A model generated the notes under the pieces. The model did no database searches. It saw only the letters and a list, made by a program, of their open reading frames with translations, and was not told the DNA's origin. The position numbers and the translations under genes were made by a program. Of a stretch of 64,000 nt of DNA, positions 1,701 to 49,804 are shown in pieces (position 1 is the stretch's first letter; every line of letters starts with the position of its first letter). This stretch comes from Propionivibrio sp. (GTDB lineage Bacteria > Pseudomonadota > Gammaproteobacteria > Burkholderiales > Rhodocyclaceae), in the NCBI RefSeq assembly GCF_029255185.1, contig NZ_JAPUVO010000130.1, forward strand, positions 41,971-105,970, written 5' to 3'.

Positions 1701-1950
1701 CTATCGCTCCCGCAAACTCTCATCCTTATACTGAAGCAAGGGGCTCAGGAAATACTCGATCACCCGGCGCTGGGCAGTCTTGACTTTTACGGTGACCGCC
1801 ATTCCCGGTGACAGATTGACGGTCTTGTTCTCCACCTGGATCGTCGACCTTTCCAGACTCACCCGCGCCGGAAAAATCAGTCGTCGCTTTTCGTCATTCA
1901 CCGCATCGTTCGAAACGTGGGTCACCTTGGCGTTGATGGTGCCCGTACCT
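1701..1950 (-). pseudogene. 3' remnant of a HlyD-family type I secretion adaptor
   Basis: The minus strand encodes only the last 75-80 residues of a HlyD/PrtE-type periplasmic adaptor: VTHVSNDAVNDEKRRLIF, then GMAVTVKVKTAQRRVIEYFL and SPLLQYKDESLRER, which is the family's characteristic C-terminus. Full-length members have roughly 430-450 residues. Homology stops near 1945-1950, the reading frame meets a stop just upstream, and the 3' end of the parA-like gene follows within about 40 bp. No ABC exporter or outer-membrane partner lies nearby. I read this as the scar of a deletion or rearrangement that removed the rest of a type I secretion operon. The frame has an internal ATG at 1925, but a functional 74-residue product is unlikely. 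Confidence 0.75.
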
Positions 1951-1985
1951 GGCGGTAGAACAAATTTACCCTGTCGCTATCAGGC

Positions 1986-3934: not shown

Positions 3935-3939
3935 GGCGC

Positions 3940-4914: not shown

Positions 4915-5013
4915 GGTTTTCTCCTGGGCAAAGGTCGCAGGGTGCACTTGGCGCGATGGCATCCGCTACCAGACGCGCCAACTCAAACCACTAGACTAGC
5001 CGCAGCACAACGA

Positions 5014-5047
5014 TCGAGCAAGCCATGCAGCAGCATGGCTTGCTCGA
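5014..5047. terminator. Perfect 15-bp hairpin between kdpE and qor
   Basis: TCGAGCAAGCCATGC (5014-5028) pairs perfectly with GCATGGCTTGCTCGA (5033-5047) around a 4-base loop. It lies 106 bp beyond the kdpE stop and 100 bp before the qor start, both on the minus strand. A transcript end for the kdpDE operon is the likely role, but neither strand has a clear run of T after the stem. A protein-binding palindrome is the alternative. Confidence 0.5.
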
Positions 5048-5152
5048 TAAAGTTGATAGAAAGACCGGTTTCAGTTCTAGTCTGGATCCGCAGGGTCACT
5101 ATTTTCAATTGATGCAGGTACTCCAGCCGCAAGAATCGTTGGATACCCATCG

Positions 5153-5845
5153 CTAGCTCACAAAACGGTAGCCAACCCCAGATTCGGTCAGGATGTATTT
5201 CGGCCGTGTCGGGTCATCCTCGATTTTCTTCCTGACATGCCCCATATAGACGCGGACATAGTGACTATCTTCGGTGTGGGAGGGACCCCAAACGGCCTTC
5301 AATAGCTGCCGATGGGTCAGTACCGAATCCGGATTAGCGATCAGATAGGCCAGCAGCCTGAATTCGATCGGGGTCAGATGGAGTTGCTGCCCAGCTTTTT
5401 CGACAATCCGTTTTCCGAGGTCGACGCGAACATTACCGAACTCGAAAACCGTCATCCCCGTCGTACCCGCCCTAAAACGTCTGCGCAAATGCGCTCGGAC
5501 GCGGGCCAGGAGTTCGGCGGCCCCGAACGGCTTGATCAGGTAATCGTCGGCGCCGGCATCGAGCGCGGCCACTTTGTCGGCTTCGGCCGTTCGGGCGGAA
5601 AGAACGATGATGGGGATGTCCGACCAGGTGCGCAGCTCACGGATCAAATCGACGCCGTCGCCATCCGGCAATCCAAGGTCGAGGACCACCAGGTCAGGTT
5701 GCCGGGTACCCACTTCAATCAAACCGCGGGCCACCGAATCTGCCTCGAATACTTCCAGTTCCTCGGCTTCCAGCGCCAGTCGGATGAAGCGCCGAATCTT
5801 GGCTTCATCCTCGACAACGATCACGATCGGTGTGGTGGTGGACAT
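5153..5845 (-). CDS. kdpE: KdpE, potassium-responsive DNA-binding response regulator
   Basis: This 230-residue OmpR-type regulator has a receiver domain at about 6-118 with acidic pocket E12/D13, phosphoacceptor D56 (VVLDLGLPDGDGVDLI) and the conserved Lys in YLIKPFG. A winged-helix domain follows (about 130-228, ending ILTESGVGYRFV). After phosphorylation by KdpD it activates kdp transcription. The ATG lies directly next to the kdpD stop codon with no intergenic bases, so the pair is translationally coupled. Two T-rich boxes at 9139-9159 and 15314-15334 are the probable binding sites. Confidence 0.97.
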   Translation of the reverse strand: MSTTTPIVIVVEDEAKIRRFIRLALEAEELEVFEADSVARGLIEVGTRQPDLVVLDLGLPDGDGVDLIRELRTWSDIPIIVLSARTAEADKVAALDAGADDYLIKPFGAAELLARVRAHLRRRFRAGTTGMTVFEFGNVRVDLGKRIVEKAGQQLHLTPIEFRLLAYLIANPDSVLTHRQLLKAVWGPSHTEDSHYVRVYMGHVRKKIEDDPTRPKYILTESGVGYRFVS

Positions 5846-8554: not shown

Positions 8555-8561
8555 GTGGACC

Positions 8562-8735
8562 TTATTTCTCCTTGGCGCCTTTGGCTATTTCGGCCAGTAT
8601 CCTGGTCCGTACCAACCCGGGGTAAACAGACTTGCAGTGCGGGGAGCAGGTCCTCGGTCGACCGTAGGACAACTGGTCTAGTATTGCATGGACTTCATGG
8701 GGCCTGCCGCAAACCGGGCAAATATGTCGCGTCAT
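8562..8735 (-). CDS. Small Cys-rich, putative zinc-ribbon protein in kdpD operon
   Basis: This is a 57-residue protein read from ATG 8735 to TAA 8562. Two metal-binding-like cysteine pairs are visible: C6-P-V-C9 near the start (RHICPVCGRPHEVH) and C30-SPH-C34 in the middle (RTCSPHCKS), with His residues nearby. This is the pattern of a small zinc ribbon. It starts 6 bp after the stop of the upstream 99-residue gene and ends 7 bp before kdpD, so it should be co-transcribed with kdpDE. No function is recognised; nucleic-acid or protein binding is plausible. The tight packing and the Cys pattern support a real gene. The ribosome binding site is weak, consistent with coupling to the upstream gene. 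Confidence 0.7.
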   Translation of the reverse strand: MTRHICPVCGRPHEVHAILDQLSYGRPRTCSPHCKSVYPGLVRTRILAEIAKGAKEK

Positions 8736-8741
8736 AGTGTT

Positions 8742-9041
8742 TCACGCCGTATGTTCGGCATAACGCGCAAGAGCCATCGCCTGATTGGCAATGCTGGAAG
8801 ATACGATGAAGGTTTCGCGCCCGCATACATTGCCCAGGGTCAACGCCAGGCTGAGCGCCGCGACACCTGCCACCGCCATTCGCACCGGGTCGCCGTAACC
8901 GGACAGAAAGACCCTGATCCCTTCGATGCCCATTCCCGTCGCCGGGAATTTCATCACCACGGCAGCCTTGCCTGGTTCCAGGGCGGCGACTTCAAGCGAG
9001 TCATTCGTCGAAGCAATACCGATGCATAAGTCTGAGTTCAT
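8742..9041 (-). CDS. 99-residue degenerate IS110 transposase-like (DEDD/RNase H fold) protein upstream of kdpD
   Basis: Start ATG 9041 is chosen because AAGGAT lies at the right distance; the longer frame from 9101 has no such signal. The whole protein aligns by eye to the N-terminal DEDD domain of IS110-family transposases. CIGIASTNDSLEVAAL stands for the usual GIDVSK-x-x-LDVAL, MAVAGVAALSLALTL for the LEATGGY region, and ALARYAEH for the end of the domain. The catalytic Asp of GIDVSK is replaced (GIAST), the Glu of EATG is replaced by Ala, and the KTDxxDA segment is missing. It should therefore be inactive as a nuclease. Its place as first gene of the kdpDE block, under a kdp-like promoter box, suggests a regulatory or structural role. 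The homology is by eye only. Confidence 0.7.
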   Translation of the reverse strand: MNSDLCIGIASTNDSLEVAALEPGKAAVVMKFPATGMGIEGIRVFLSGYGDPVRMAVAGVAALSLALTLGNVCGRETFIVSSSIANQAMALARYAEHTA

Positions 9042-9138
9042 TTGATCCTTCACTTTCGATTGATAAACAGCCAGGCCAGGTACATGACGAATACTAGGCA
9101 AAACGATTTCAATATTTTGAAAAAAATAGGGGCTTCGT

Positions 9139-9159
9139 TATAAAAAGAGCGTAAAAATT
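9139..9159 (-). promoter_or_regulatory. Putative KdpE-binding box upstream of the kdpDE block
   Basis: This 21-bp site reads on the plus strand TATAAAAA, four variable bases, GTAAAAATT. It matches the box upstream of kdpF at 18 of 21 positions and resembles the T-rich E. coli KdpE site on the transcribed orientation. Both boxes are followed, in the direction of transcription, by a short C-rich then AT-rich stretch. The site lies about 100 bp before the 99-residue gene. Confidence 0.6.
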
Positions 9160-9171
9160 GACGTTACGGAA

Positions 9172-9633
9172 TCACTCGAGGAGTGACCAGGTAGTGAACA
9201 GTTGCTTTACTTCCAAGGGTTGTTTGCACAAGTGCAGGCGCTCACGGAACCGCTGGTTGGAAAACATCCGCGTCGCTTCGGCGAGAATGCCAAGATGCGC
9301 CTCAGTGGCTTCCTTGGGAACCAGCAGAACGAAAATATCGCTGACCGGTTTGCCATCCGGCGCAGCGAAAGGCAGTGGCGATTTGAGGCGCACGTAGGCA
9401 AGCTGTATGCGGTAAAGATCCTTGATGCGGGCGTGCGGAATGGCCACGCCCTCACCCAGGCCGGTTGACCCGACCTGTTCCCGACGTGACAGACTGAGGA
9501 CAATCCACGCTTGCGGCATGCCATGCATTCCCTCCATGTGCTGGCCGATTTCTTCAAAAAGCTGGGTTTTACTCACCACCTCCAGATCAAGGATGACGTC
9601 TTCGGTCCGGAGAAGATCAGCGATGCTGTCCAA
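9172..9633 (-). CDS. PTS IIA-Ntr (PtsN)-like regulatory protein at the end of the kdp operon
   Basis: I choose the TTG at 9633: GGAGGA lies 7 bases before it, and it gives 153 residues beginning MDSIADLLRTEDVIL, exactly where PtsN proteins begin. The ATG at 9744 would add an unrelated Arg-rich leader. The phosphorylatable His is H67 in GEGVAIPHARIK. PtsN proteins are phosphorylated by the nitrogen PTS, and in E. coli dephosphorylated PtsN binds KdpD and inhibits the Trk potassium system. A dedicated paralogue downstream of kdpFABC therefore fits a role in adjusting potassium uptake. It follows the porin gene after 132 bp and ends 12 bp short of the kdpDE promoter box. Confidence 0.85.
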   Translation of the reverse strand: MDSIADLLRTEDVILDLEVVSKTQLFEEIGQHMEGMHGMPQAWIVLSLSRREQVGSTGLGEGVAIPHARIKDLYRIQLAYVRLKSPLPFAAPDGKPVSDIFVLLVPKEATEAHLGILAEATRMFSNQRFRERLHLCKQPLEVKQLFTTWSLLE

Positions 9634-9765
9634 TTTGTGTTCCTCCACAGGATGATAAATCCGCCATCGTTCGATCCACTGGCGGGGCACAAGGGAGCGG
9701 GATTGCCCGCCCCCCCGTTCTTTCTCTGTCTTCAATGCAGACATGGGCCTTGCTGCCTGACTCGA

Positions 9766-10584
9766 TCAGAAACTCTTGGTCACGGAAAGAACGGCGATGC
9801 CGCGACCGGCATCCTTGGCTTTGCTGCCGTTCTGGACGTTCTGGTTGCTCAGGGAATTGGAGAAACAATAGAACTCGCCGTTGCCACAATCCCCCTTGGC
9901 ATTGGTGTCCACATAGGCAGCACCGACCACCCAGCCCGACATATCCTTGGTCAAGCCGAGTTTCCAGTCGGTATAGCTGCCGTTGGTGACGTTCCTGAAA
10001 TTCAGACGGCCAACGTGGCCGTTGATGCCCCAGCCCTCGCCCAGATCGTAGTTGGCCGACAGATCAAGATAACTGCTGCCCTTGCTGTCTGGCATGGCGA
10101 AATAGTCGCTGATTGCATGGGAATATTTCAGGGACAGGAACTTCCAGGAGGCCGCGAGATAAATTTCCGTGTTATCGACCCGGCCGGTATTGGTTTTTCC
10201 ACCATTGGTAATGGTCAAATCAGTACCGGGGTAGTAGTAGTAAAGACCACCGACATCGATCCCGAAATCACCGAAACTCGCCTTGTAGCCGCCATAAAAA
10301 TCCATTTCCAGATTGCCTTCCGGATAACCGGCACCGGAGGAAACATTGGAGTTCCAGTTGCCAAGATAGAGGCCGCTGGAATGCGCGTAATCAACGCCAC
10401 CTTGCAAGGCAGGCTTGCCAAAGGTCTGGTCGATACCACGGAAGCGGTAGCTGCTGAACAGGCCGAGGTTGCCGGTCAGGCTGTGCTCGGGCGTCGGGGC
10501 GTCCTCGGCCAGGACCGGCGCCGAAAGGCCGGCGGCCAAGGCAAGGACGGCAAGGGAACGAAGGGAAGCGGAATGTTTTTTCAT
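9766..10584 (-). CDS. TorF-family putative outer-membrane porin linked to kdp
   Basis: The product has 272 residues from ATG 10584, the first Met followed by a clear signal peptide (MKKHSASLRSLAVLALAAG ... APVLAED). The mature part has the features of the TorF/gcw_chp family of small beta-barrels: LTGNLGLFSSYRFRGIDQT near the start, many alternating aromatic strands, GYPEGNLEMDFYGGYK and a C-terminal Phe (VLSVTKSF). It starts 22 bp after the kdpC stop, with no terminator, so it is probably induced with kdp. An outer-membrane channel supplying potassium or another solute to the Kdp pump is a reasonable inference. The longer frame upstream of 10584 merely overlaps kdpC. Confidence 0.85.
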   Translation of the reverse strand: MKKHSASLRSLAVLALAAGLSAPVLAEDAPTPEHSLTGNLGLFSSYRFRGIDQTFGKPALQGGVDYAHSSGLYLGNWNSNVSSGAGYPEGNLEMDFYGGYKASFGDFGIDVGGLYYYYPGTDLTITNGGKTNTGRVDNTEIYLAASWKFLSLKYSHAISDYFAMPDSKGSSYLDLSANYDLGEGWGINGHVGRLNFRNVTNGSYTDWKLGLTKDMSGWVVGAAYVDTNAKGDCGNGEFYCFSNSLSNQNVQNGSKAKDAGRGIAVLSVTKSF

Positions 10585-10606
10585 GAAGATATCTCTCTGT
10601 GTTGTA

Positions 10607-11179
10607 TTAACGAAGTGAATCAAGCGCGATATTGAGCTGCAATACATTGACCCGGGGTTCGCCGAAGACACCCCACTGGCGACCTTCAGTGTTCTTGGCA
10701 ACCAGGGTCCTGACGACCTCCACCTGGAGTTGGCGTGTTTTGGCGACCCGTTCGATCTGGTATTCGGCAGCGGCCGGGCTGATCTCGGGATCAAGACCGC
10801 TGGCCGAAGCATTGACCAGATCGGCCGGAATTGGCTTGCTATTGCCTGGATCAGCCGTCTTCAGGGCGTCGATCCGCCCCTTGACCGCGTCGACCAGGGC
10901 CGGATTGAGCGGTCCCTGGTTGGAGCCACTGGAGGCCGAGGCGTTGTAAGGCTGCGGCGAAGTGGCCGAGGGGCGGCCCCAGAAATACCGAGGATCGCTG
11001 AAGTTTTGCCCGATCAGACGGGAGCCGACCGGCTTGCCATCCTTGATGACCAGGCTGCCGTCAGCTGCTTCGGAAAAGGTGACTTTGGCAAGGCCGGTAA
11101 CCGCCAACGGGTAAACAACGCCAGTCACGGCAGTGAGCAAGACAAAGAGACTGACGGCGGGGCGTAACAGGGTTTTCAT
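10607..11179 (-). CDS. kdpC: KdpC, accessory subunit of the potassium-transporting ATPase
   Basis: The protein has 190 residues from ATG 11179 ([20 protein letters not shown]). One N-terminal membrane anchor is followed by the periplasmic domain with [36 protein letters not shown] and DALKTADPG motifs typical of KdpC. KdpC stabilises the KdpA-KdpB complex and raises its affinity for ATP/K+. The start lies 11 bp after the kdpB stop, with a good AGGAG. Confidence 0.97.
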
Positions 11180-11190
11180 GTATTTTCTCC

Positions 11191-13257
11191 TCAAGCCAGA
11201 CCGATGGCGGCAATCGCCATGTCGATCAACTTAATGCCGATAAAGGGAACGACGACGCCACCCAGGCCGTAGATCGCCAGGTTCTGCCGCAATAGCGTCG
11301 CGGCGCCGAGCGGCCGGTACTTGACGCCCTTGAGGGCCAGCGGGATCAGAAAGACGATGATCAGCGCGTTGAAAATCACCGCCGACAGGATGGCCGAGGC
11401 CGGGCTAGCCAAACTCATAACGTTGAGCGCGGCAAGTTGCGGATAGGTCGTCACGAACGCCGCTGGAATGATGGCGAAGTATTTGGCGACGTCGTTGGCA
11501 ATACTGAAGGTGGTCAGCGAACCCCGGGTCATCAGCATCTGTTTTCCGGTTTCGACAACCTCAATCAGCTTGGTCGGATTCGAATCCAGATCGACCATGT
11601 TGCCAGCTTCCTTGGCGGCCTGCGTACCGGTGTTCATGGCTACCGCGACATCGGCCTGGGCAAGCGCCGGGGCGTCATTTGTACCGTCGCCCGTCATCGC
11701 CACCAGCCGGCCTTCGCTTTGGTACTGGCGGATCAGCGCCAGCTTGGCTTCCGGCGTCGCTTCCGGCAGGAAGTCGTCGACACCGGCTTCGGCAGCGATG
11801 GCCGCCGCAGTAATTCGATTGTCGCCGGTCACCATGATCGTCTTGATACCCATCAGGCGCAGTTCGGCAAACCGCTCCTTAATGCCACCCTTGACGATGT
11901 CCTTGAGTTCGATGACGCCCATGACTCGAGTGCCATCGGTTACTACCAGCGGCGTGCTGCCGCGTCGCGCAACCTCATCCACCTTGTCGACGAGCGATTT
12001 GGGGAAACTGCCGCCCAGGGCTTCGACATGTTTCTTGATCGCTTCAGCCGCACCCTTGCGAATCTGACGACCCGCCATGTCGACGCCGCTCATCCGGGTA
12101 TTTGCCGAGAAATGCACGAAGTGGGCATCCAGCGCATGAATGTCGCGCTCCCGCAACTGGAAACGCTGCTTGGCGAGGACCACAATGCTGCGTCCTTCCG
12201 GCGTTTCGTCGGCAAGCGATGCCAGTTGGGCCGCATCGGCCAGTTCGCCTTCCGTGACGCCATCGGCCGGCAGGAAGGTGGAAGCCTGGCGATTGCCCAG
12301 GGTGATCGTGCCGGTCTTATCCATCAGTAGCACATCGACGTCGCCGGCCGCCTCGACAGCACGCCCGGAAGTGGCAATCACATTGGCCTGCATCATGCGG
12401 CTCATGCCGGCCACGCCGATGGCCGAGAGCAGGCCAGCAATAGTGGTCGGGATCAGGCAGACGAGCAGCGCAATCAGTACGGTAATACTGATCGGCGTAC
12501 CAGAACCGGCTACCTCGACACTGAACATCGAAAACGGCAGCAAGGTGACGACCACGCCCAGGAAGACGATAGTCAGTGCCACCAGCAGGATGGTCAGGGC
12601 GATTTCGTTGGGCGTCTTCTGACGCTTGGCGTTCTCGACCATGGCAATCATCTGGTCGACAAAGGTTTCACCGGGATTAACCGTGACCCGCACAACAATC
12701 CAGTCGGACAGCACGCGGGTGCCGCCGGTGACGGCCGAGAAGTCGCCGCCGGATTCCCGGATGACCGGAGCCGATTCGCCGGTGATGGCGGATTCATCGA
12801 CCGAGGCGACGCCTTCGATGACCTCGCCGTCAGCCGGAATCGTTTCCTGAGCCTGGACGAAGATGACATCGCCCTTGCGCAGATCAGTCGCCTGGGCCAT
12901 ATGCCATTGGGCACCAAACCGGGGCTCACGTAACTTCTTGGCCCAGGTTTCCTTTTTCAGGCCACGCAGCGAAGCGGCTTGCGCCTTGCTGCGTCCTTCG
13001 GCCAGTGCCTCGGCGAAATTGGCGAAGAGCACGGTAAACCACAACCAGATGGTGATCGCCAGGATGAAACCGGCCGGCGCCTCTCCTTGCCCACCCAGGG
13101 CTTGCGCCCAAAGGATGGTGGTGAGGATGCTGCCAACATAGACGACGAACATCACCGGATTGCGCCATTGCACAGCCGGATTCAGTTTACGGAAAGCATC
13201 GGCAATGGCCGGAAAGGCCAGCGCCGGATCGAACAGAGTAAAAGTCTTGCGTGTCAT
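11191..13257 (-). CDS. kdpB: KdpB, P-type ATPase catalytic subunit of the high-affinity K+ pump
   Basis: The product has 688 residues from ATG 13257, which is preceded by GGGGAGA; the frame extends further only into the end of kdpA. P-type ATPase signatures are complete: actuator [10 protein letters not shown], phosphorylation motif DKTGT (about residue 307), nucleotide-binding KGAAEAIKK and hinge [16 protein letters not shown]. Seven membrane segments are expected. ATP hydrolysis here powers potassium entry through KdpA. Confidence 0.98.
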
Positions 13258-36655: not shown

Positions 36656-37030
36656 TTAAACAAGCAAACCCCTGCTCAGTCGCATCGCGCCGACCAGATC
36701 GGCGTTGTTCTCGTAGCTGCAACCCACATCGATGCCGATGATCGAGGCTGAAGGATGGACCGGCTCTGCAATCTCGCGCTCAGTCTGAATCGACACGAAC
36801 CACTTGCCGCCGTTGCAAGATACGGTGATGTTCTGCGCTGTGCCGAGAATGTCCCGGCTATTGCGGTAGCGAATCCAGCCCAGCTTCTTCTCGCCCTGCT
36901 CGTATCTGGCTTTCTGCATCGCCAGCGCCTTGTTGAATACGAACCGGCACGAGCCAACGAAGCGGCGCGTATTGCGCTGCTGGTCGCCGTTGGGCTGTAG
37001 TTCGTATTTGTAGGCTTGCAAGCAGTTCAC
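36656..37030 (-). pseudogene. tnpB: Internally deleted TnpB (IS605 OrfB) remnant
   Basis: The frame, opened at a likely GTG 37030, has about 124 residues instead of about 370-400. Three TnpB pieces follow one another without frameshift. First is the N-terminus LQAYKYELQPNGDQQRNTRR ... FNKALAMQKARYEQGEKKLG. Second is the middle part WIRYRNSRDILGTAQNI ... IIGIDVG, with the RuvC-I Asp. Third is the end NADLVGAMRLSRGLLV. Two in-frame deletions have removed most of the helical lobe and the RuvC-II and zinc-finger regions. RNA-guided nuclease activity is therefore not expected. Confidence 0.8.
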
Positions 37031-37051
37031 GGCTAAATTATAGTTTGGTCT

Positions 37052-37468
37052 ATGCAAACAAACAATGACATTCGACACGGGCGGCACTGTGTTTTTAACA
37101 TGCACATCCACCTGGTTTTTGTGGCGAAATATCGCCGCAAGGTCTTCGATAGCGATGCAATTTACCGGCTCAAAGAATTGTTCGCTAAAACATGCACTGG
37201 CTTCGAGGCCGACCTGGTGGAAATGGACGGCGAACGTGACCATGTGCATTTGCTGGTGAACTATCCACCCAAGGTTGCCGTATCGGCACTAGTGAACAGT
37301 CTCAAAGGGGCTTCCAGTCGGGTACTGCGCAAGGAACGACCGGATATTGCCCAGCGCTACTATCTCAAGGGCGGATTGTGGTCGCCCAGCTACTTCGCCG
37401 CCTCCTGTGGCGGTGCCCCAATTAGCATCATTCGGCAGTACATCGAGCAACAGGCAACTCCCGATTGA
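37052..37468 (+). CDS. tnpA: IS200/IS605-family Y1 transposase TnpA
   Basis: The protein has 138 residues, full length for the family. The HUH motif is HVH in GERDHVHLLVNYPP, and the catalytic Tyr lies in SIIRQYIEQQ. Other family features are the N-terminal HCVFNMHIHLVFVAKYRRKV and LKGASSRVLR. It acts on single-stranded DNA hairpins. It appears intact and could still move this element or related ones. Confidence 0.94.
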   Translation: MQTNNDIRHGRHCVFNMHIHLVFVAKYRRKVFDSDAIYRLKELFAKTCTGFEADLVEMDGERDHVHLLVNYPPKVAVSALVNSLKGASSRVLRKERPDIAQRYYLKGGLWSPSYFAASCGGAPISIIRQYIEQQATPD

Positions 37469-41849: not shown

Positions 41850-42143
41850 TCAAAAAGTCGGACGCTGTTCAAAGCCGGCTGCTGCTTCGAGGTTTTCAGC
41901 GTCGGGCTCGTCGCTGCATAAAACGCGCTCGACCCGGGCGCTGGGCGGGCCGCGATAGGCCCAGGCGGTAAGCGCTTCGACAGTTTGCGGCGTACCGCAA
42001 ATCAAGGCTTCTACGCTGCCGTCACGACGGTTGCGCACCCAGCCACGCAGCCCTAGGGCTCTGGCTTCGGCACTCAGCGACCAGCGGAAACCGACGCCCT
42101 GTACATGGCCGTGAATGGTGAGACGACGGGTGAGCTGTACCAT
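41850..42143 (-). CDS. acyP: Acylphosphatase
   Basis: ATG 42143 gives 97 residues, the normal size. The signature is TIHGHVQGVGFRWSLSAEAR, with the catalytic Arg and, further on, GWVRNRRDGSVEA with the catalytic Asn. It hydrolyses acyl phosphates. It lies 11 bp after the hyfI-like gene as the last gene of the Ehr operon. Acylphosphatase domains also occur in HypF, but no HypF zinc fingers or carbamoyl domain is present here. Confidence 0.93.
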   Translation of the reverse strand: MVQLTRRLTIHGHVQGVGFRWSLSAEARALGLRGWVRNRRDGSVEALICGTPQTVEALTAWAYRGPPSARVERVLCSDEPDAENLEAAAGFEQRPTF

Positions 42144-42154
42144 GTGCTGTCCGC

Positions 42155-42679
42155 TCAGGACGTACTGTCTGCGGCCGGGGTGATGGCGGCCAGGATGCCC
42201 TGAATCAGTTGCAGCGGGGTAGGTGGGCAGCCGGGAATGGAAACGTCGACCGGGATGATGTTGGATACCCGGCCACAGGAGGCGTAGCTTTCGCCGAAGA
42301 GGCCGCCGGTACAGCCGCAATCGCCAACGGCAACGACCAGCTTGGGTTCCGGTGTGGCGGCGTAGGCGCGCTTGAGCGCGACTTCCATGTTTTTTGCGAC
42401 CGGGCCGGTGACTAGCAGCAGATCGGCGTGGCGTGGACTGGCGGCGAATTTAATGCCCATCGCTTCAAGGTTGTAATAGGGATTGTTGAGGGCATGAATT
42501 TCGAGTTCGCAGCCATTGCACGATCCGGCATCGATGTGGCGGATGACCAGCGCACGGCCAAGCTGCCGGGTCAGCGCGTTGGAGAGGCGTTCGGTGGTGG
42601 CGCACAAGGCATCGTCAACGGTGGGGGCCGGCTCGCTGACGATGCCGGTGCGAAGGATTTGTCTGAGCAGCGGGATCAT
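42155..42679 (-). CDS. hyfI: Hydrogenase-4 component I / NuoB-like iron-sulfur subunit
   Basis: ATG 42679 overlaps the stop of the large-subunit gene by 4 bp and gives 174 residues. The four Cys ligands of the N2-type [4Fe-4S] cluster are present in family order: GSCNGCELEIHAL, VGDCGCTGGLFG and VSIPGCPPTP, together with ESYASCGRV. It is the small electron-transfer subunit that sits against the large subunit in complex I and group 4 hydrogenases. The symbol follows the E. coli hyf order. In this operon it is part of an Ehr-type complex. Confidence 0.9.
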   Translation of the reverse strand: MIPLLRQILRTGIVSEPAPTVDDALCATTERLSNALTRQLGRALVIRHIDAGSCNGCELEIHALNNPYYNLEAMGIKFAASPRHADLLLVTGPVAKNMEVALKRAYAATPEPKLVVAVGDCGCTGGLFGESYASCGRVSNIIPVDVSIPGCPPTPLQLIQGILAAITPAADSTS

Positions 42680-44223
42680 AAATCCTGTCCGGCGTAAGAG
42701 AGGTTGAAGGATTTGTTGATCAGGGGAAAATCGGGAACGATGTTGTCGATCGCCGCGTGTTCGAGCGCCGGCCAGTTCTGCCACGACGGATCGTGGCAAT
42801 GGCAGCGCCGGATCTGGCCATCAGTACCGGTTTCCAGGGCGACCAGGACATCACCGCGCCAGCCTTCGATCCAGCCAAAGCCGCGCCGATCGGCGGCGCT
42901 AAAGAACTCGCTGCGGATTGGGCCGGGTGGCAGGTCGCTGGCGATTTTGTGGATCAGGTGCAGCGACTCGCTGATCTCGGCAAAACGAACGAGAGCACGT
43001 GCGGCGACATCGCCGTTGCGTTCGATAACCATTTTTGGCGCCAGTTGATCGTAAGGTTCGCAGGGATGATTGCAGCGCAGATCCCAGGCCTGGGCGCTGG
43101 CCCGCCCGGCCAGACCAATCATGCCGAGGCGTTTGGCGAGTTGGGGTGTGATCCGACCGGTACTGAGGAAGCGGTCCTGCAGACCGGCATGCTCGTCGTA
43201 GATTTTCTTCAGCTGGCGTACTTCGTTCGCCAGCGTGTGGCAGTGGTCGATGACGGCCTGCGCGCCCTGGGCGTCCAGGTCGACGGCGATGCCGCCAGGA
43301 ACAATGCGATCCATCAGCAGGCGGTGGCCGAATAGCCGGGCGTTGAGCCGGGTCCAGTCTTCCTTTAGGCGCATGAATTGGGTCAGTCCGAACGCCAGCG
43401 CCACATCGTTGCCCAGGTATCCGAGATCGCCCAGATGGTTGGCCACCCGTTCGTGTTCGAGGAGCAGCGCGCGCAGCCACAGTGCACGCGGCGGCGGCGG
43501 GGTGCCGCTGATGGCTTCGGCGGCCTGGCTATAGGCCCAGGCATAGGCGACCGTCGAATCGCCGGAAACGCGGCCAGCCAGGCGAGCGCCGTCGCTCAAG
43601 GCCATGCCGACAAAGCGGCGCTCGATGCCTTTGTGCTTCCAGCCGAGCCGTTCTTCGAGGCGCAGCACGCTTTCGCCCATCACCGAAAAGCGGAAATGGC
43701 CGGGTTCGATGATTCCGGCATGGATCGGGCCGACCGCGACTTCGTGGACCCCGTCACCCTCGACGCGAACGAAGGGATAGTTCTCGTTGCAGGTTGCGAA
43801 ACGGGTATCCGGGGTATCGCGACGCAAAGGGTAATGGTCGGCGGGCCAGTTGGCGTGACGCAGCCAGGGGCGCTGATCGCCGTCCTGCGGGGCGGCGCCG
43901 AGCAGGTCGCGAACGGTGCGTTGCATGCGGTCAGCGGCCGGGAAAGCCAGTGCCAGGTCGGGGAACTCCGGATTTTCAGTCGGCAGCGGCAGTGTCAGGC
44001 AGACCAGTCCTTCGGCCAGATCGAAGGCGAGGTGCAACGCATAACCAAATTTTGCGTCACGATCCCGTTCATCGCTGCCCCACAGCGCGATCAGCCGGCG
44101 TTCGGCCTGATGCGCGGCGGTGCAGAAGGCGAGCAGCTCACGAGTACTGACCCGCGCCGCGAAGGTCAGCGCCGCGTGCTCGGCAAGCGGTTTGAATTCG
44201 ATGGCTTGATTGAGAAATTGCAT
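42676..44223 (-). CDS. hyfG: Hydrogenase-4 component G / NuoCD-like large subunit without NiFe ligands
   Basis: ATG 44223 gives 515 residues; the longer frame only overlaps the upstream gene. Residues 1-135 are NuoC-like (FPAADRMQRTVRDLLGA). The rest is NuoD/HycE-like (LEERLGWKHKGIERRF). The N-terminal NiFe motif RVCGIC is R218-V-S-G-D-S223 here, so both Cys are Ser. The C-terminal DPCxxC motif is replaced by INKSFNLSYAG. No NiFe centre can be built, and it is thus not a hydrogenase. It matches the energy-converting-hydrogenase-related (Ehr) class of complex-I relatives, whose reaction is unknown. The symbol reflects homology only. Confidence 0.88.
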   Translation of the reverse strand: MQFLNQAIEFKPLAEHAALTFAARVSTRELLAFCTAAHQAERRLIALWGSDERDRDAKFGYALHLAFDLAEGLVCLTLPLPTENPEFPDLALAFPAADRMQRTVRDLLGAAPQDGDQRPWLRHANWPADHYPLRRDTPDTRFATCNENYPFVRVEGDGVHEVAVGPIHAGIIEPGHFRFSVMGESVLRLEERLGWKHKGIERRFVGMALSDGARLAGRVSGDSTVAYAWAYSQAAEAISGTPPPPRALWLRALLLEHERVANHLGDLGYLGNDVALAFGLTQFMRLKEDWTRLNARLFGHRLLMDRIVPGGIAVDLDAQGAQAVIDHCHTLANEVRQLKKIYDEHAGLQDRFLSTGRITPQLAKRLGMIGLAGRASAQAWDLRCNHPCEPYDQLAPKMVIERNGDVAARALVRFAEISESLHLIHKIASDLPPGPIRSEFFSAADRRGFGWIEGWRGDVLVALETGTDGQIRRCHCHDPSWQNWPALEHAAIDNIVPDFPLINKSFNLSYAGQDL

Positions 44224-44231
44224 GGGTCTGT

Positions 44232-45683
44232 TCAGCCGATCAATTTGGCGGCCTGCCGGTACCAGTCGGCGAGGTAGGGCGGGATCCACAGGCCGAGCAT
44301 GAGCACCAGCCCGAGATGAACAAATACCGGCAGCAGTGCCGGATTGTGCGCCAGCGGCCGCACCGTCGGTTCGCCAAAAACCATGGATTGTACCTTTTGA
44401 AACATGGCGGCAAAGGCCACACCCAGCGCCATCAGCAGAATCGGCGTGGCCCACGGGTAATGTTTGATGGCGGTGGTCAGGATCATGAATTCGCTAGTGA
44501 ACACGCCGAAGGGTGGCATGCCGAGAATGGCCAGCGAGCCGAGCATCAGCCCCCAGCCGATGGTCGGTGATTGCTTGATCAGCCCCTTGATGTCATCGAT
44601 GATCTGGGTTCCGGCCATTTGTGCGGCGTGGCCGACGGCAAAAAAGATCGCCGATTTGGTTAGCGAGTGCACGGTCATGTGCAGCAAGCCGGCAAAGCTG
44701 GCGACCGGGCCGCCCATGCCGAAGGCAAAAGTGATCAGACCCATGTGTTCGATCGACGAGTAGCCAAAGAGTCGCTTGACGTCTTTTTGCCGCGCCAGAT
44801 AAAAGGCCGGGACAACGACAGTGAGCAGGCCGAAGGCGATCATCAGGTTGCCAGCGAAGTGCGTTCCCAGCGCGCCGTCAACCAGCACCTTGCAGCGGAT
44901 GATGGCGTACAGCGCGACATTGAGCAGTAGGCCGGAGAGCACCGCAGAGACCGGCGTCGGGCCTTCGGCGTGGGCATCCGGCAGCCAGTTGTGCAGGGGT
45001 ACGAGGCCGGTCTTGGTGCCGTAACCGACAAACAGGAAGACGAAAGCTAACGAGAGTACGGTGGGTTCAAGCTGGCTCTTGACGGCATCAAGGTGCGTCC
45101 ACAAGAGCGCGCCGCTTTCGTGACCAAGGATCCGTTCGGCAGCGAAATAGATCAGGATGGTGCCGAACAGCGCCTGGGCGATGCCAACGCCGCACAGAAT
45201 GAAGTATTTCCAGGCCGCTTCCAGGCTGGCCGGCGTGCGGTAGAGGGCGACCAGCAGGACGGTGGTCAGCGTCGCCATTTCCATGGCCACCCAGAGGATA
45301 CCGAGGTTGTTGGTCGACAGGGCGACCAGCATGGTGCACATGAACATCTGGAACATGCTGTGATAGAGGCGCAGCCGGTTGACTGACAGGCGGTCGTGGT
45401 CGTGCTCGACACGCATGTAGGGGCGCGAGAAGAGCGAGGTGGTGAAGCCGACGAGGGCAGTGAGGGCGATCAGGAAAACATTGAGCGGGTCGACGAAAAA
45501 CTGTTCGTCATAGAGAACCATCGGGCCGTCGTTGATTACGCGGATGGTCAGCAGTGCGGCCGCCAGCAGCGTCAGCAGGCTGCCTGCCGAGTTGATTTCG
45601 GCGGCGCCGCGGCGGTGGCCGAAGAGCGCCAGCAGCAGCGCGGTGGCGAAGGGGGTGACGAGCACCAGCACCAGTTCGATCAT
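44232..45683 (-). CDS. hyfF: Hydrogenase-4 component F / NuoN-like proton-pumping membrane subunit
   Basis: This 483-residue protein has about 14 membrane segments. Antiporter-like motifs are visible: LGILWVAMEMATLTTVLLVA (with the conserved Glu), LHNWLPDAHAEGPTPVSAVL, LFGYSSIEHMGLI and GLLHMTVHSLTKSAIFFAVG. It belongs to the family that translocates protons or sodium in complex I. It overlaps hyfE by 4 bp and is followed by hyfG after 8 bp. Confidence 0.92.
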   Translation of the reverse strand: MIELVLVLVTPFATALLLALFGHRRGAAEINSAGSLLTLLAAALLTIRVINDGPMVLYDEQFFVDPLNVFLIALTALVGFTTSLFSRPYMRVEHDHDRLSVNRLRLYHSMFQMFMCTMLVALSTNNLGILWVAMEMATLTTVLLVALYRTPASLEAAWKYFILCGVGIAQALFGTILIYFAAERILGHESGALLWTHLDAVKSQLEPTVLSLAFVFLFVGYGTKTGLVPLHNWLPDAHAEGPTPVSAVLSGLLLNVALYAIIRCKVLVDGALGTHFAGNLMIAFGLLTVVVPAFYLARQKDVKRLFGYSSIEHMGLITFAFGMGGPVASFAGLLHMTVHSLTKSAIFFAVGHAAQMAGTQIIDDIKGLIKQSPTIGWGLMLGSLAILGMPPFGVFTSEFMILTTAIKHYPWATPILLMALGVAFAAMFQKVQSMVFGEPTVRPLAHNPALLPVFVHLGLVLMLGLWIPPYLADWYRQAAKLIG

Positions 45684-46369
45684 TGCTCCTTGTTCCTCTC
45701 CATGTGCCGGATGTCGAGACTATCGAACTGTTGCCTGATCTGGAAAAAGAAGACGCCGAGGATGACCATGCCGACCATCACGTCGAGTGCAATGCCGAGC
45801 TCAACGACCATCGGCATGCCGTAGGTGGCACTGGTGGCGGCGAAGAAGAGCCCGTTTTCCATGGCCAGGAAGGCAATGACCTGTGGCACCGCCTTGCTGC
45901 GCGTAATCATCATCAGGAAGGCGAGCAGGACGCAGGCCAGCGCAATACCGATTGTGGCGCGCGTGATGGTTCCTGAAAGTTGCGAAATGGGTTGCGCCAC
46001 GTTGAAGGCGATAACCACCAGTGCAATACCGATCAGCATGATGGTCGGGATGTTGAGCAGGGTTTCGATGTCCCACTTGACCGACAAGCGGCGGATCAGG
46101 CGATGCAGGATGAGCGGCAGGGCGATGACTTTGAGCAGCAGGGTGAGTCCGGCCGACCACAGCAGATGACTCTGACTGGTGGTCAACGCGACGATCAAGG
46201 TCGATATAAAGAGCACCAGACCTTGCAGCATGAATAGGTTGATCAGCGTCAGGACGCGGCGCTGCGCCAACATGGCGAAGCCGAGCAGGAGCATAATCGC
46301 CGCACACAGATTGATTACCTGGCTACTGAGCGGAATGGCGTGGATCAGCGAGGCGTTCACTGCACTCAT
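45680..46369 (-). CDS. hyfE: Hydrogenase-4 component E / NuoK-like membrane subunit
   Basis: The protein has 229 residues with about six or seven membrane helices. Motifs include INLFMLQGLVLFISTLIVAL and FLAMENGLFFAATSATYGMP, with the NuoK-type Glu. It overlaps both neighbours by 4 bp, which implies fixed stoichiometric translation with hyfC and hyfF. Confidence 0.9.
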   Translation of the reverse strand: MSAVNASLIHAIPLSSQVINLCAAIMLLLGFAMLAQRRVLTLINLFMLQGLVLFISTLIVALTTSQSHLLWSAGLTLLLKVIALPLILHRLIRRLSVKWDIETLLNIPTIMLIGIALVVIAFNVAQPISQLSGTITRATIGIALACVLLAFLMMITRSKAVPQVIAFLAMENGLFFAATSATYGMPMVVELGIALDVMVGMVILGVFFFQIRQQFDSLDIRHMERNKEQ

Positions 46370-47319
46370 TGCCCCGTCTCCAACAGCAGGTGCACCAGCA
46401 TGGCCAGTACTGCAAGCAGGAATGCGGTGCCGAGGAATTCGGGCGCACGGAAGATGCGCATCTTGGCGCTTACGGTTTCAATTAACGCCAGCATGAAACC
46501 ACCGGCCAGCAGTTTAAGGATCAGGATGACGCCGGCCAGGGCAAGTGCGGTCGGGTCAGCCGTTTCGGGTATGCCGAAGGGGAAAAATAGGGCGATGCCG
46601 AGGCAGGAATAGGCAAATAACTTGAGGTTGGCGGCCCATTCGATGAGCGCCAGATGACGGCCCGAGTACTCGAGGACCATGGCTTCGTGAATCATCGTTA
46701 GTTCAAGGTGGGTGGTCGGGTTGTCGATCGGTACGCGGGCGTTTTCAGCCAGCGAAACCATAGTGAAGGCGACGCCGGCAAACGCCAGGCTCGGATAAAT
46801 GACAAACTCGCTGTGGGCCAGCGTTTCAACGATAGTTGACAGTGAGGTGGACTGCGAAATCAGCGAGGCCGTAAAGAAAACCATCAACAGGGCGGGTTCG
46901 GCCAGGAAGCCGATCAGCATTTCGCGTCTTGAGCCGAGTGAGCCAAATGAGGTGCCGACATCCATGCCGGCCAGCGCGATGAAAACCCGCGTCAGCGCGA
47001 AGAGGCCGACGAGGGCGATGGCGTCGGCGGCCGGAGAGAAAATCAGGTCGGTGGACAAGGTCGGCACGATGGCCGCCGCCAGCGCCATGCACGAAAAAAT
47101 GATGTAGGGTGCGGTCCGAAATAGCGATGAGGCGTTGTGTGCCAGCAGCACATCCTTGTGCAACAGCTTGGAGAGCGTGTAATAGGTTTGCAGCAGCGGC
47201 GGCGCTGAACGGTTTTGCAGCCAGGCGCGGCACTGATTGACCCAGCCATTGAGGATAGGCGCCAGGATTAGTGCGATGACGAGTTCGAGCAGTTGGGCAA
47301 GCAGAGCGTAGACGTTCAT
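46366..47319 (-). CDS. hyfC: Hydrogenase-4 component C / NuoH-like membrane subunit
   Basis: This 317-residue protein has about eight membrane segments. It shows the NuoH-like traits PILNGWVNQCRAWLQNRSAP, LQTYYTLSKLLHKD, ARVPIDNPTTHLELTMIHEA and MVLEYSGRHLALIEWAA. It anchors the peripheral arm and contributes the quinone-like channel in related complexes. It follows hyfB after 4 bp. Confidence 0.93.
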   Translation of the reverse strand: MNVYALLAQLLELVIALILAPILNGWVNQCRAWLQNRSAPPLLQTYYTLSKLLHKDVLLAHNASSLFRTAPYIIFSCMALAAAIVPTLSTDLIFSPAADAIALVGLFALTRVFIALAGMDVGTSFGSLGSRREMLIGFLAEPALLMVFFTASLISQSTSLSTIVETLAHSEFVIYPSLAFAGVAFTMVSLAENARVPIDNPTTHLELTMIHEAMVLEYSGRHLALIEWAANLKLFAYSCLGIALFFPFGIPETADPTALALAGVILILKLLAGGFMLALIETVSAKMRIFRAPEFLGTAFLLAVLAMLVHLLLETGQ

Positions 47320-47323
47320 GCGT

Positions 47324-49333
47324 TCATCCGCGGGTCAGCACCAGAAGGGTGAGCAGCGTCACAAAGCTGTAAAGCAGATAGATCGCGATCCGCCCCTGCT
47401 GCAGGAAGGCGATCAGCCGCGTACCCTGCTCGACGATCCTGGCGATGGGCAGGTAGAGCCAGTACCAGAAGGGGTCTTCGACCAGGCTGCGGTAACGCGG
47501 GTGGGTATCAAAGGGTGACGGGTGTTCGCGCGTGCGTTTGAAGAAAGGTGAGAAAATTCTGCGAATCGGCTGGCCGAAACCCTCGGCGGTGTCCTGCATG
47601 CGGCTGGTTTGCAGCGGGAAACCGCAGTCCCAGGCCGGGACGCGCTGTAGGCGTCCATGGTAGAAGCGGCGCACCACCCAATAGACCAGCGGCATGAACA
47701 GGGCAATGCTGACCAGGAAAATGGCCGGACTGTAGCTGGCCCGATCCTCGCTGATCGGCGCCAGTAGCCACCAGCCATGGCTGGTCGCGGTGTAGCGCAG
47801 ACCACTGCCGACCAACAGGCGGGTGACCGGGTCGAGCAGCGCAATGACGACATTGGGGAGCAGGCCAAGCAGCACGCAGCCAACGGCCAGCCAGAGCAGC
47901 CCAAGACGTTCCAGGCGGCCAGCGTCACGGGCTTGCGCAAGCTTTTCCTCGCGTGGTTGGCCGAGGAAGACGATGCCGAAAAACTTGACCATGGCAAAAC
48001 CGGCCAGTGCGGCGATCAGCGCGACGGCGCCGGCAACGACCGGCAGCAGCATGTTCAGATAGCCTTGCGGCAGACCGGAGGTGAACAGGAAGCTTTGCAG
48101 CAGCAGCCATTCGGAAACGAAGCCGTTGAATGGTGGCAGGCCGGCCGAAGCCAGCACACCGATGAGTGCCAGCCAGGTGACCCATGGCATGCGGTGAATC
48201 AGGCCGCCGAGCTTGCCGAGGTTGCGTTCGCGTGTGGCATGCAAAACCGAGCCGGTGCACAGGAAGAGCAGGCTTTTGAAGAAGGCATGATTCAGACAAT
48301 GGTAAAGGGTGGCGGTCAGCGCCAGGGCGGCCAGACTGGGCAGCAGGAAGGATTTGAAGATGAGGGTCAGCCCGAAGCCAACAAAAATTAGCCCGATATT
48401 CTCGATCGACGAGTAGGCGAGCAGGCGTTTCATGTCGCTTTGCACCGTTGAGAAGATCACGCCGAACAGGGCAGTGACCAGTCCGAGCAGGAGAAGCAGA
48501 ATGCCCCACCACCACAGTTGCGCATGCAGCAGGTCGAAGCTGACGCGCAACAGGCCGTAGATTGCCGTTTTGAGCATGACGCCGCTCATCATTGCCGAGA
48601 CCGGCGAGGGGGCCGCTGGGTGTGCTTCGGGTAGCCAGATGTGCAGCGGCAGGAGGCCGGCCTTGGCGCCGAAGCCGAAAAGTGCGAGCAGGAAAGCGAT
48701 GGTTGGCCAGAAGCCCGCAACTGAAAAGTTGCGCATGGCGTCGAAAGTGTAGTCTCCGGCGCTGCCCGCCATCACGCCAAAGGACAGCAAAATGCCGACG
48801 GCGCCGATGTGCGCAACCAGCAGGTAGAGATAGCCGGCACGCCGGATTTCGGCATGGCGGTGTTCCGAGGTGACCAGGAGGAAGGAACTGAGCGCCATTG
48901 ATTCCCAGGCCACCATGAAGGAATAGCCGTCGTCGGCGAGCATAACGAAGGCCATGCTGGTCAGGAAAATGTGATAGAGCAGGCATTGCAGGCCGGGCGC
49001 CGTACCCTCGCCCTTGCGGAAATAACCGGCGGCGTAGATCGAGATGCCGGCAGCGGTCGCGCCAAGGAGGAAAAGGAAGAAGGCGGATAGTGCGTCGAGA
49101 CGCAAATGGAAGGGCAGGTCAGGCAGGCCGAGGGGCAGGATGCGCACTTGCGGGCTGGCGCCGACGCCAAAGAGTGCGAGCAGGGCAAGGAGCAGGGCGC
49201 AGAGCGCGCCGAGCGGGAAAAGAACGCGGCTGATCAGTCTGAAATTGCGTGGAAAACTCACGCCAATGACGCCAATCAACAGCCAGCCCAGGGCGGTAAT
49301 CAGAACCCAGTCGATCAGCAGCGCTTGGCGCAT
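47324..49333 (-). CDS. hyfB: Hydrogenase-4 component B / NuoL-like membrane subunit
   Basis: The protein has 669 residues with about 16 membrane segments. Motifs include FMVAWESMALSSFLLVTSEH (conserved Glu), LPLHIWLPEAHPAAPSPVSA, LLAYSSIENIGLIFVGFG and LYHCLNHAFFKSLLFL. It is the first gene of the Ehr operon, with GGAGAG before the ATG. The C-terminal region (VPAWDCGFPLQTSRMQDTAE) is the usual HyfB tail. Confidence 0.93.
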   Translation of the reverse strand: MRQALLIDWVLITALGWLLIGVIGVSFPRNFRLISRVLFPLGALCALLLALLALFGVGASPQVRILPLGLPDLPFHLRLDALSAFFLFLLGATAAGISIYAAGYFRKGEGTAPGLQCLLYHIFLTSMAFVMLADDGYSFMVAWESMALSSFLLVTSEHRHAEIRRAGYLYLLVAHIGAVGILLSFGVMAGSAGDYTFDAMRNFSVAGFWPTIAFLLALFGFGAKAGLLPLHIWLPEAHPAAPSPVSAMMSGVMLKTAIYGLLRVSFDLLHAQLWWWGILLLLLGLVTALFGVIFSTVQSDMKRLLAYSSIENIGLIFVGFGLTLIFKSFLLPSLAALALTATLYHCLNHAFFKSLLFLCTGSVLHATRERNLGKLGGLIHRMPWVTWLALIGVLASAGLPPFNGFVSEWLLLQSFLFTSGLPQGYLNMLLPVVAGAVALIAALAGFAMVKFFGIVFLGQPREEKLAQARDAGRLERLGLLWLAVGCVLLGLLPNVVIALLDPVTRLLVGSGLRYTATSHGWWLLAPISEDRASYSPAIFLVSIALFMPLVYWVVRRFYHGRLQRVPAWDCGFPLQTSRMQDTAEGFGQPIRRIFSPFFKRTREHPSPFDTHPRYRSLVEDPFWYWLYLPIARIVEQGTRLIAFLQQGRIAIYLLYSFVTLLTLLVLTRG

Positions 49334-49804
49334 TTTTGGCGCTCTCCTAACAGCCCGTCGGACTTAAGCGCGAGCAGCGGTCAAATTCCCCGATCCGGGA
49401 AAAATGGACGCGCCTTTGGATAAAATCAGGGTAATTCGGCATAGGGATGCAATGCTTCTGTTCTATTCTGGTGCGGCGTTACTGCCGATATAGATTTTCC
49501 CGTTTGGAAACGTAATTTTGTAGAGGATACTCTGATTCATTTTTGAGATTTCCGGCCCGTCATCTCACCGCCACCAGAACCGTCGCCCTCCCCATCATCC
49601 TTTTTTGCTCAACTGCCGCAATCAACTCTTGATCGATAAGTGGTCAGAATATACATCAGCTTCTCTTTCACGACCGTCATTTCTGACTGCCAGAAATCGA
49701 ACTCAGGCAAATACATTGTTTCCGCTGCGCTTGCCCGTATACTTCTCGCCTTTAGCGACGCGGTGTCTTCGTAAAGTCTTTTTCGTTCTACCAGGAGTTT
49801 CTAA
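49334..49804. other. 471-bp divergent control region between the Ehr operon and tkt
   Basis: No convincing gene is present. A 67-codon frame at 49605-49808 lacks a ribosome binding site and overlaps the tkt start. The region is less GC-rich than its surroundings. A plausible tkt promoter lies at 49716-49743. I could not identify a clear promoter for the hyf direction. Confidence 0.6.
49716..49743 (+). promoter_or_regulatory. Putative sigma-70 promoter of tkt
   Basis: TTGTTT (49716-49721) and TATACT (49738-49743) are spaced by 16 bp, about 60 bp before the tkt ATG. Confidence 0.4.

Follow-up and report, generated by a model that had tools for sequence, protein, structure and literature searches.

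An Ehr operon in Propionivibrio: a complete hydrogenase-4-like gene set whose large subunit lacks the nickel ligands

The window analysed here, a stretch of 64,000 nucleotides from contig NZ_JAPUVO010000130.1 of Propionivibrio sp., carries on its minus strand (49333..42155) one tight operon of six genes, hyfB-C-E-F-G-I (Table 1), which by homology is a member of the published energy-converting hydrogenase-related (Ehr) family. A sequence-only reading of the window had regarded the six genes as a complete Ehr operon, related to complex I, that has lost its nickel-iron (NiFe) site. The assignment to Ehr is upheld by sequence matches in Pfam, NCBIfam and PDB, by the fold, and by the placement of the large subunit in a clade free of nickel (Ni) ligands. 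The successive junctions (B/C, C/E, E/F, F/G and G/I) consist of a 4-bp gap, two 4-bp overlaps, an 8-bp gap and a further 4-bp overlap, and thus match the 4-bp overlaps or 4-8 bp gaps that had been read from the frames. Completeness likewise stands, as the order BCEFGI was found in all 68 comparison loci (denoted by L numbers below) in which all six genes passed the score thresholds. Nineteen other loci from L018 on have two to five genes over threshold, mostly in short or cut stretches (in L066 and L090 one gene is merely below threshold), and loci in which all genes are more distant (e.g., L023, L024, L026 and L027) lie outside the count of 68.

Table 1. Features of the Ehr operon and of the gene that follows it (positions in the window)
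Feature	Coordinates	Strand	Description	Basis
hyfB	47324..49333	-	antiporter-like membrane subunit (NuoL/MrpA type), 669 aa	NCBIfam NF005086 hydrogenase 4 subunit B, 893 bits vs cut-off 667; Pfam Proton_antipo_M
hyfC	46366..47319	-	NuoH-type membrane subunit, 317 aa	Pfam NADHdh 4.6e-37
hyfE	45680..46369	-	hydrogenase-4 membrane subunit, 229 aa	NCBIfam NF008556, 8.3e-23, below its cut-off; no Pfam match
hyfF	44232..45683	-	second antiporter-like membrane subunit, 483 aa	NCBIfam NF005045 hydrogenase 4 subunit F, 859 bits vs cut-off 543
hyfG / EhrL	42676..44223	-	large subunit (NuoC+NuoD/HycE type) without Ni ligands, 515 aa	Pfam Complex1_49kDa and Complex1_30kDa
hyfI / EhrS	42155..42679	-	small subunit (NuoB/HycG type), 174 aa, predicted [4Fe-4S] at C54, C57, C121, C151	Pfam Oxidored_q6 5.5e-31
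Former N-terminal Ni-binding motif, R218-V-S220-G-D222-S223	43555..43572	-		sequence and census
Former C-terminal Ni-binding motif, SFNLSYAGQDL (505-515; S505-F-N-L-S509-Y-A-G512) and stop, no C-terminal extension	42676..42711	-		
Acylphosphatase gene	41850..42143	-		Pfam PF00708 1.4e-23 on 42131-41850; start codon read from sequence

The closest PDB match of HyfG is HycE of E. coli (7z0s_E; phmmer E=3.4e-58), and in that alignment RVSGDS falls on RVCGIC and SFNLSYAG on the region of the C-terminal motif. In the multiple alignment the four ligand columns read CCCC in the NiFe enzymes vs SSSG in the window protein; RVCGIC has become RVSGDS, DPCYSC has become NLSYAG, and none of the four ligand Cys residues is left. 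The extent of this loss was assessed in a census of the window protein and 104 relatives with scores of 340 bits or more, from which L003 and L029, the window locus itself fetched twice, were left out (another large-subunit census, of 102 rows, includes L003). The reading frame of L075 ends early and leaves gaps at the C-terminal columns, two ligand positions among them; L051, a metagenome record with the doubtful title Bordetella parapertussis, was kept in the counts and in the fold alignment. No ligand Cys occurs in 95 of the 105 rows, one occurs in the other 10, and no row has more than one, so that the loss proposed for the window protein holds through its branch. All 10 NiFe control rows in the same alignment show all four ligand Cys residues, and the method therefore detects Ni ligands where they are present.

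The genomes of sibling organisms carry the same changed motif, which rules out the assembly error that the earlier reading had named as a possible flaw. The replacement of both Cys residues of the N-terminal motif by Ser, as first described, is correct for the window HyfG but fails as a family signature: the sibling L005 retains the first Cys, as RVCGDS, and the signature is therefore better written x-G-D-S/T. The substitution of SFNLSYAG for the C-terminal DPCxxC is borne out both by the sequence and by the alignment with HycE. The window HyfG ends at QDL, where Hyc-type controls continue for 26 to 32 residues; since several NiFe controls (L119, L120, L126, L127 and L056) are also without this tail, its absence is not diagnostic alone.

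The former Ni pocket has a signature of its own. Between the two former Cys residues, at position 222, all 105 rows have Asp, whereas the 10 NiFe rows have Ile, Val or Leu there. At position 455, which in hydrogenases belongs to the EAPRG motif, Trp is found in 102 rows and Phe in three, compared to Pro (nine) or Ala (one) in the NiFe rows. Neither D222 nor W455 occurs in any of the 10 NiFe controls. Gly221 is likewise invariant (105/105), as are Tyr510 and Asn507 in the 104 rows that have a residue there. The HyfG/HyfI head cannot produce or oxidise H2 by NiFe chemistry.

Automatic annotation was expected to call such genes hydrogenase-4, and indeed NCBIfam names HyfB and HyfF "hydrogenase 4" above its cut-offs. 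Relatives are named "hydrogenase 4 subunit B/F", "formate hydrogenlyase" or "NADH-quinone oxidoreductase subunit C" in public records. HyfG relatives in two public plasmid records (H27 and H28) are labelled "nickel-dependent hydrogenase large subunit", and even "hydrogenase expression protein HypE". In the membrane subunits, charged residues are fixed throughout the comparison: E144, K224, K353 and E408 of HyfB (each 74/74 rows), E133, E141, E192, E206, E212 and E217 of HyfC (each 76/76), and E135 (92/92), K224 (94/94), K343 and E398 (both 95/95) of HyfF.

Membership in Ehr is indicated by several features taken together. The large subunit is a group 4 NiFe homologue without the Ni-binding Cys pairs, the small subunit is of the NuoB/HycG type with the Cys residues of the proximal [4Fe-4S] cluster, antiporter-like and NuoH-like membrane subunits lie within the one cluster, and HyfG groups with Ni-ligand-free large subunits, apart from Hyc/Hyf/CooH-like ones. 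The tree was built with the motif columns excluded, and both tree and alignment consist of sequences other than those of the papers that name Ehr. The branch that holds the window protein forms one clade (support 100/99). A larger clade (100/100) unites this branch with the ferredoxin-fused Ehr, with the divergent Ni-free sequences L023, L026 and L027, and with a single NiFe row, L056; the other nine NiFe rows fall outside it. This topology fits a loss of the Ni ligands inside the group 4 hydrogenases. At the base of the larger clade, which has long branches, either L056 or the pair L026/L027 may branch first, and parsimony counts two changes; a single loss of the ligands is likely. In L056, a group 4 complex with four Ni-ligand Cys residues (1809-4425; ERICGVC, ELCYSCTD) adjoins an Ehr operon (4795-12203). 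This complex stands at the base of the clade and may be the closest NiFe-bearing relative of Ehr.

The ratio of nonsynonymous to synonymous substitution rates (dN/dS; NG86) is 0.10 against L004 and 0.13 against L006; the operon is under purifying selection and is not a decayed hydrogenase. A decaying or residual hydrogenase, or an artefact of assembly, could be suspected in view of the clear loss of the Ni ligands and of the single Cys retained in 10 of 105 rows, including the sibling L005. Conservation refutes this explanation, which is barely credible in view of the dN/dS of about 0.1, the changed motifs shared by the 104 other rows, none with more than one of the four Cys residues, and the orthologues found in most genomes of the genus. 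A match was obtained in 26 of 28 genus genomes and an orthologue (identity at least 67%) in 25 of the 28; among the good-quality genomes an orthologue is present in 16 of 17, with G013 containing only the divergent subfamily. In the scan of the bacterial family, 45 of 121 genomes contain an Ehr of the window branch (hits of at least 54% identity), and three more have only hits of 31-34%. The same operon occurs in Cupriavidus metallidurans CH34 (L018) and Rhizobium johnstonii 3841 (L021), and Ehr is also found in Burkholderia, Paraburkholderia and Rhizobium. Complexes like Ehr are widespread: a scan of species genomes gave at least 584 stretches that encode HyfG relatives, not all of which need be Ehr.

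The best PDB match of HyfI is MbhJ (6cfw_J, 5e-37), with HycG (7z0s_G, 3.9e-36) a close second. Its Cys residues 54, 57, 121 and 151 align with the Cys residues of HycG/MbhJ-type subunits, and the earlier observation that the small subunit keeps its iron-sulfur Cys residues is correct for all four. Of 113 small-subunit rows (query, window duplicates and some controls included), 109 keep them; the exceptions are three truncated rows (L012, L042 and L083) and a copy on plasmid pMESIL01 of Allomeiothermus silvanus. By this residue pattern, one N2-type [4Fe-4S] cluster in HyfI is the only recognisable redox centre of the head. The Allomeiothermus plasmid (L023:13260-14132) carries a six-gene Ehr-like operon whose small subunit is without all four cluster Cys residues; it has a CxxCxxC stretch near its N-terminus, and Oxidored_q6 is its only Pfam match. 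This operon of the Thermales may encode an Ehr that is rewired or works without redox chemistry.

The retention of the six-gene set in Allomeiothermus after the loss of all four Cys residues is one point in favour of the chief alternative to a redox enzyme, an ion or solute transporter in which the head would be a regulatory or structural relic and the arm would act as an Mrp-like antiporter or as partner of a bicarbonate or sulfate carrier. The neighbours of the operon, compared in 87 Ehr loci with flanks of uneven length, provide another: a SulP permease gene stops 7 bases short of hyfB in L052 and L058, both from Thiobacillus, and six further loci have a SulP gene upstream in the same orientation (L043, L059, L075, L078 with the STAS end only at a contig end, L079 and L090). 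Yet SulP is found in only nine of the 87 loci, in one of them (L048) downstream on the opposite strand, and there is none beside the window operon. The cluster Cys residues are kept almost throughout, and the HyfG pocket residues are invariant, unlike those of a relic. We consider such a transporter unlikely, though it is the most serious of the alternatives.

No neighbour is general among the 87 loci, the leading clusters being present in 16, 13, 11 and 8 of them, and a conserved neighbour as electron donor was therefore rejected. The commonest cluster is spermidine-synthase-like (two members checked by Pfam), followed by a mixed cluster of SulP permeases (nine loci) and universal stress proteins (four), joined via a fused reading in L075, by a cluster that we take from its sequence to be MetG-like, and by DUF1275 (one member checked). 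Spermidine-synthase-like genes stand near hyfB or downstream of the operon in L018, L019, L020, L055, L061, L063, L068, L070 and others, and in L061, L068 and L070 such a gene ends 21 bases before the hyfB frame.

Comparison with known systems places the operon beside several of them. Hydrogenase-4 and formate hydrogenlyase (E. coli 7z0s and Azospirillum argentinense L024) have B, C, E, F, G and I subunits homologous to those of the window. The L024 locus has CCCC ligands, a 32-residue C-terminal tail, FdhF, ferredoxin subunits, HycI and Hyp genes, whereas none of these was found at the window locus. In place of the RxCGxC and DPCxxC motifs of group 4 Hyf/Hyc enzymes, with their four Cys residues, the window has RVSGDS and NLSYAG, and the local formate dehydrogenase (FDH), ferredoxin subunits and maturation genes of that group were not found in it (of the hyp genes, the search covered HypD). 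Complex I shares the fold and the homologous subunits (NuoB, C, D, H and L/M/N modules); unlike it, the window operon contains no NuoE, F, G or I, the input module, its HyfG has Gly in the quinone-site Tyr column, and the genome codes for a separate NuoD. Among the archaeal MBH/MBS/MBX complexes, MbhJ is the best small-subunit match and the large subunits of MBH and MBS match HyfG, although HyfG is less similar to these in sequence than to HycE. MBH and formate hydrogenlyase are ferredoxin- or formate-driven enzymes.

The MBS match raises the possibility that the former NiFe pocket reduces polysulfide or other small sulfur species. HyfG is matched by 6u8y_L (E=1.3e-15), which we take to be from MBS, an enzyme presumably working without a normal NiFe site, and several Ehr hosts bear the names of sulfur or iron lithotrophs. 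HycE is far closer to HyfG than MBS is, Ehr is also present in Burkholderia, Paraburkholderia and Rhizobium, and the recurrent neighbour clusters, for the most part without annotation, include no recognised sulfur gene; a sulfur-reducing function is thus improbable.

The ferredoxin-fused Ehr (second copy of L019, L101, L088, L115-L117 and L121) share with the window the loss of Ni ligands, the GDS/GDT motif and the Y-x-G pocket, but they form a separate clade (100/99) and have no fixed Trp455. In both copies scanned (L019 and L121) a 4Fe-4S ferredoxin domain makes up the N-terminal part of the small subunit, an indication that in these relatives the site receives electrons from ferredoxin-like donors. 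This divergent second subfamily lies near the main operon at L019:1147-3362, L101:6-3627 and L088:17836-20344 (Variovorax, Piscinibacter and Rhodoferax).

The earlier reading had also noted that no FDH, polyferredoxin (hyfA/hyfH) or hyp gene accompanies the operon. This is correct at the locus, where FDH, ferredoxin subunits and maturation genes were not found (hyp genes other than HypD were not searched for there), and no CxxCxxCxxxC motif occurs in the six frames of the window; it does not extend to the whole genome, which has a HypD match on another contig. When the proteins of the hydrogenase-4 locus L024 were compared by blastp with the 87 Ehr loci, HycI, HypA and HypC were found in none. 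Ferredoxin-subunit-like matches occur in four, within other complexes in L056, L019 and L088 and away from the operon in L048. FdhF-like genes occur in two, L048 and L082, kilobases from the operon.

These figures bear on the proposal that FDH feeds the head. Such an FDH-Ehr complex has been proposed for Riflemargulisbacteria and Saganbacteria, relatives of Cyanobacteria (PMC6349859, in excerpt), and the excerpted text of PMC7894505 reports the Ehr subunits of Geobacter sulfurreducens to be more abundant on formate than under hydrogen-containing conditions. In the host genome, however, no Fdh-alpha match was obtained at E<=1e-200, weaker or unlike formate dehydrogenases not being searched. Across the 121 family genomes, divided into 45 with and 76 without Ehr in tests that ignore phylogeny, Fdh-alpha shows no co-occurrence (19/45 vs 32/76, p 1.0). 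An FDH partner therefore finds no support in this bacterial family, and a formate-linked function of the operon appears highly doubtful.

The host genome (3.26 Mb in 141 contigs, completeness 99.99, contamination 0.52) contains NuoD, HypD, RuBisCO and three 2-oxoacid:ferredoxin oxidoreductase matches, together with a separate NAD-linked cluster of the HoxE/F/U type with a NiFe large subunit and a maturation protease; NifH was not found in it at the threshold used. At least three 2-oxoacid:ferredoxin oxidoreductase matches were present in 37 of the 45 Ehr-containing genomes vs 8 of the 76 others (Fisher p 1e-15), and any such match in 43 vs 50. The mean per genus is 4.6 in the 22 genera in which all genomes have Ehr and 1.1 in the 39 Ehr-free genera. 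RuBisCO (31/45 vs 23/76) and NiFe hydrogenase (40/45 vs 50/76) were also more frequent with Ehr, and RnfB is nearly universal (116/121). NifH shows no association (19/45 vs 28/76, p 0.57), and a link to nitrogenase was rejected.

Some of these associations would be expected if the complex used the proton-motive force for reverse electron transport, in which quinol would reduce ferredoxin for biosynthesis: Ehr is found in genera known as lithoautotrophs and is enriched together with RuBisCO and the 2-oxoacid:ferredoxin oxidoreductases. The Gly in the quinone-site Tyr column, the indifference of NifH and the confounding of the associations by phylogeny speak against this direction, and we hold it to be rather improbable.

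The reading that we prefer, at about even chances of being right, is an ion pump driven by redox chemistry through a single [4Fe-4S] cluster and served by a soluble low-potential carrier such as ferredoxin; its coupling, carrier, direction and acceptor are what we infer. In this scheme HyfB, C, E and F would form the ion-translocating membrane arm and HyfG and HyfI the peripheral head. Because the operon encodes no ferredoxin subunit of the HyfH/HyfA type, a soluble low-potential one-electron carrier (ferredoxin or flavodoxin) would dock directly on HyfI. The HyfI cluster would then relay electrons, in one direction or the other, between this carrier and an acceptor in the rebuilt HyfG pocket (Asp222, Ser/Thr223, Trp455 and Tyr510), and a change of protonation in the pocket would drive, or be driven by, movement of H+ or Na+ through HyfC, F and B.

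Several points weigh against this pump. No electron acceptor was identified. Alignment of HyfG with HycE and NuoD, which confirmed the loss of the Ni ligands, places Gly (105/105 Ehr rows) in column 221, where NuoD of the same genome has Tyr, presumably the quinone-binding residue of complex I; a quinone held exactly as in complex I is thus unlikely. The AlphaFold2 model of HyfG is good overall (mean predicted local distance difference test (pLDDT) score 85, predicted template modelling score (pTM) 0.88) and has a Foldseek template modelling score of 0.86 to 7z0s_E, but the loop at residues 150-196 and residues 512-515 fall below pLDDT 50 and the partner subunit is absent, so that the geometry of the pocket cannot be judged from it. 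The Thermales copy, having lost all four cluster Cys residues, fits a non-redox role at least there. Finally, in the seven genera with mixed Ehr content (g17, g19, g38, g47, g50, g64 and g68) genomes with Ehr have more oxidoreductase matches than those without it in one genus, fewer in another and as many in the remaining five; the association with ferredoxin oxidoreductases, which exists between lineages only, is therefore a lead only.

A bolder extension of the ion-pump reading, which we put forward tentatively, would make the BCEFGI Ehr a distinct enzyme class with a pocket rebuilt on an invariant Asp-Trp-Tyr set, a minimal one-cluster pump with cellular ferredoxin and a small acceptor as its direct redox partners. 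It might then serve as a reversible valve for the supply or disposal of ferredoxin in proteobacteria rich in 2-oxoacid:ferredoxin oxidoreductases.

The acylphosphatase gene starts 11 bases 3' of hyfI and is possibly co-transcribed with the operon in this genome. It is followed downstream by an AhpC-type peroxiredoxin gene and then by a terminator-like hairpin (41114-41088), in a scan that gave seven sites overall vs a mean of 8.7 in shuffled sequence, i.e., no excess; the promoter scan found no site. Upstream of the operon a transketolase gene (Pfam) lies at 49805 on the opposite strand. Between them, upstream of hyfB, a short open stretch on the minus strand (49540..49463), MNQSILYKITFPNGKIYIGSNAAPE and a stop, resembles by eye the start of a GIY-YIG nuclease remnant. 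Elsewhere in the window, at 36656-37468, an apparent IS200/IS605-type transposase gene can be made out by eye, together with a disrupted partner on the opposite strand.

Since the Ehr family has already been described in print, the finding is less novel than first thought. Citing papers attribute the name to Coppi 2005 and Marreiros et al. 2013; the excerpt of PMC12361115 cites the 2013 paper without using the name. The excerpted texts describe Ehr without Ni ligands and of unknown function in Sulfobacillus, with six syntenic genes (PMC4378227), in comammox Nitrospira (PMC10284858), in about half of the genomes of Nitrospirales (PMC12342949, which also reports that Ehr expression in N. moscoviensis was not raised by H2) and in ammonia-oxidising archaea (PMC10432482), and Ehr is tabulated for Methylacidiphilum in the excerpt of PMC6688271. 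The window operon shares with these, as far as the excerpts go, a group 4 hydrogenase-like gene set, the absence of Ni-binding motifs and a function described as unknown. It differs in being part of a stand-alone BCEFGI branch, mostly of Proteobacteria in our sample (the published sequences were not in the alignment), with the Trp455/Asp222 signature and no ferredoxin subunit or FDH within the operon. Among the papers listed in literature searches for a phenotype of this operon, none mentioned hyfB or hyfF in one search and none mentioned hydrogenase-4 in another.

What is added here is that the operon is not a decayed hydrogenase, given the selection acting on it and its fixed gene order, that its pocket has a recognisable signature, and that it has no general partner gene; the data are also evidence against an FDH partner in this bacterial family. 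The hydrogenase-4 and formate hydrogenlyase labels given by automatic pipelines can inflate predictions of H2 metabolism. Ehr complexes lie between the hydrogenases and complex I, and the excerpts of the cited papers name no substrate for them. The D222 and W455 signature provides a handle for site-directed mutants, and Cupriavidus metallidurans CH34 and Rhizobium johnstonii 3841 are culturable hosts of the same operon.

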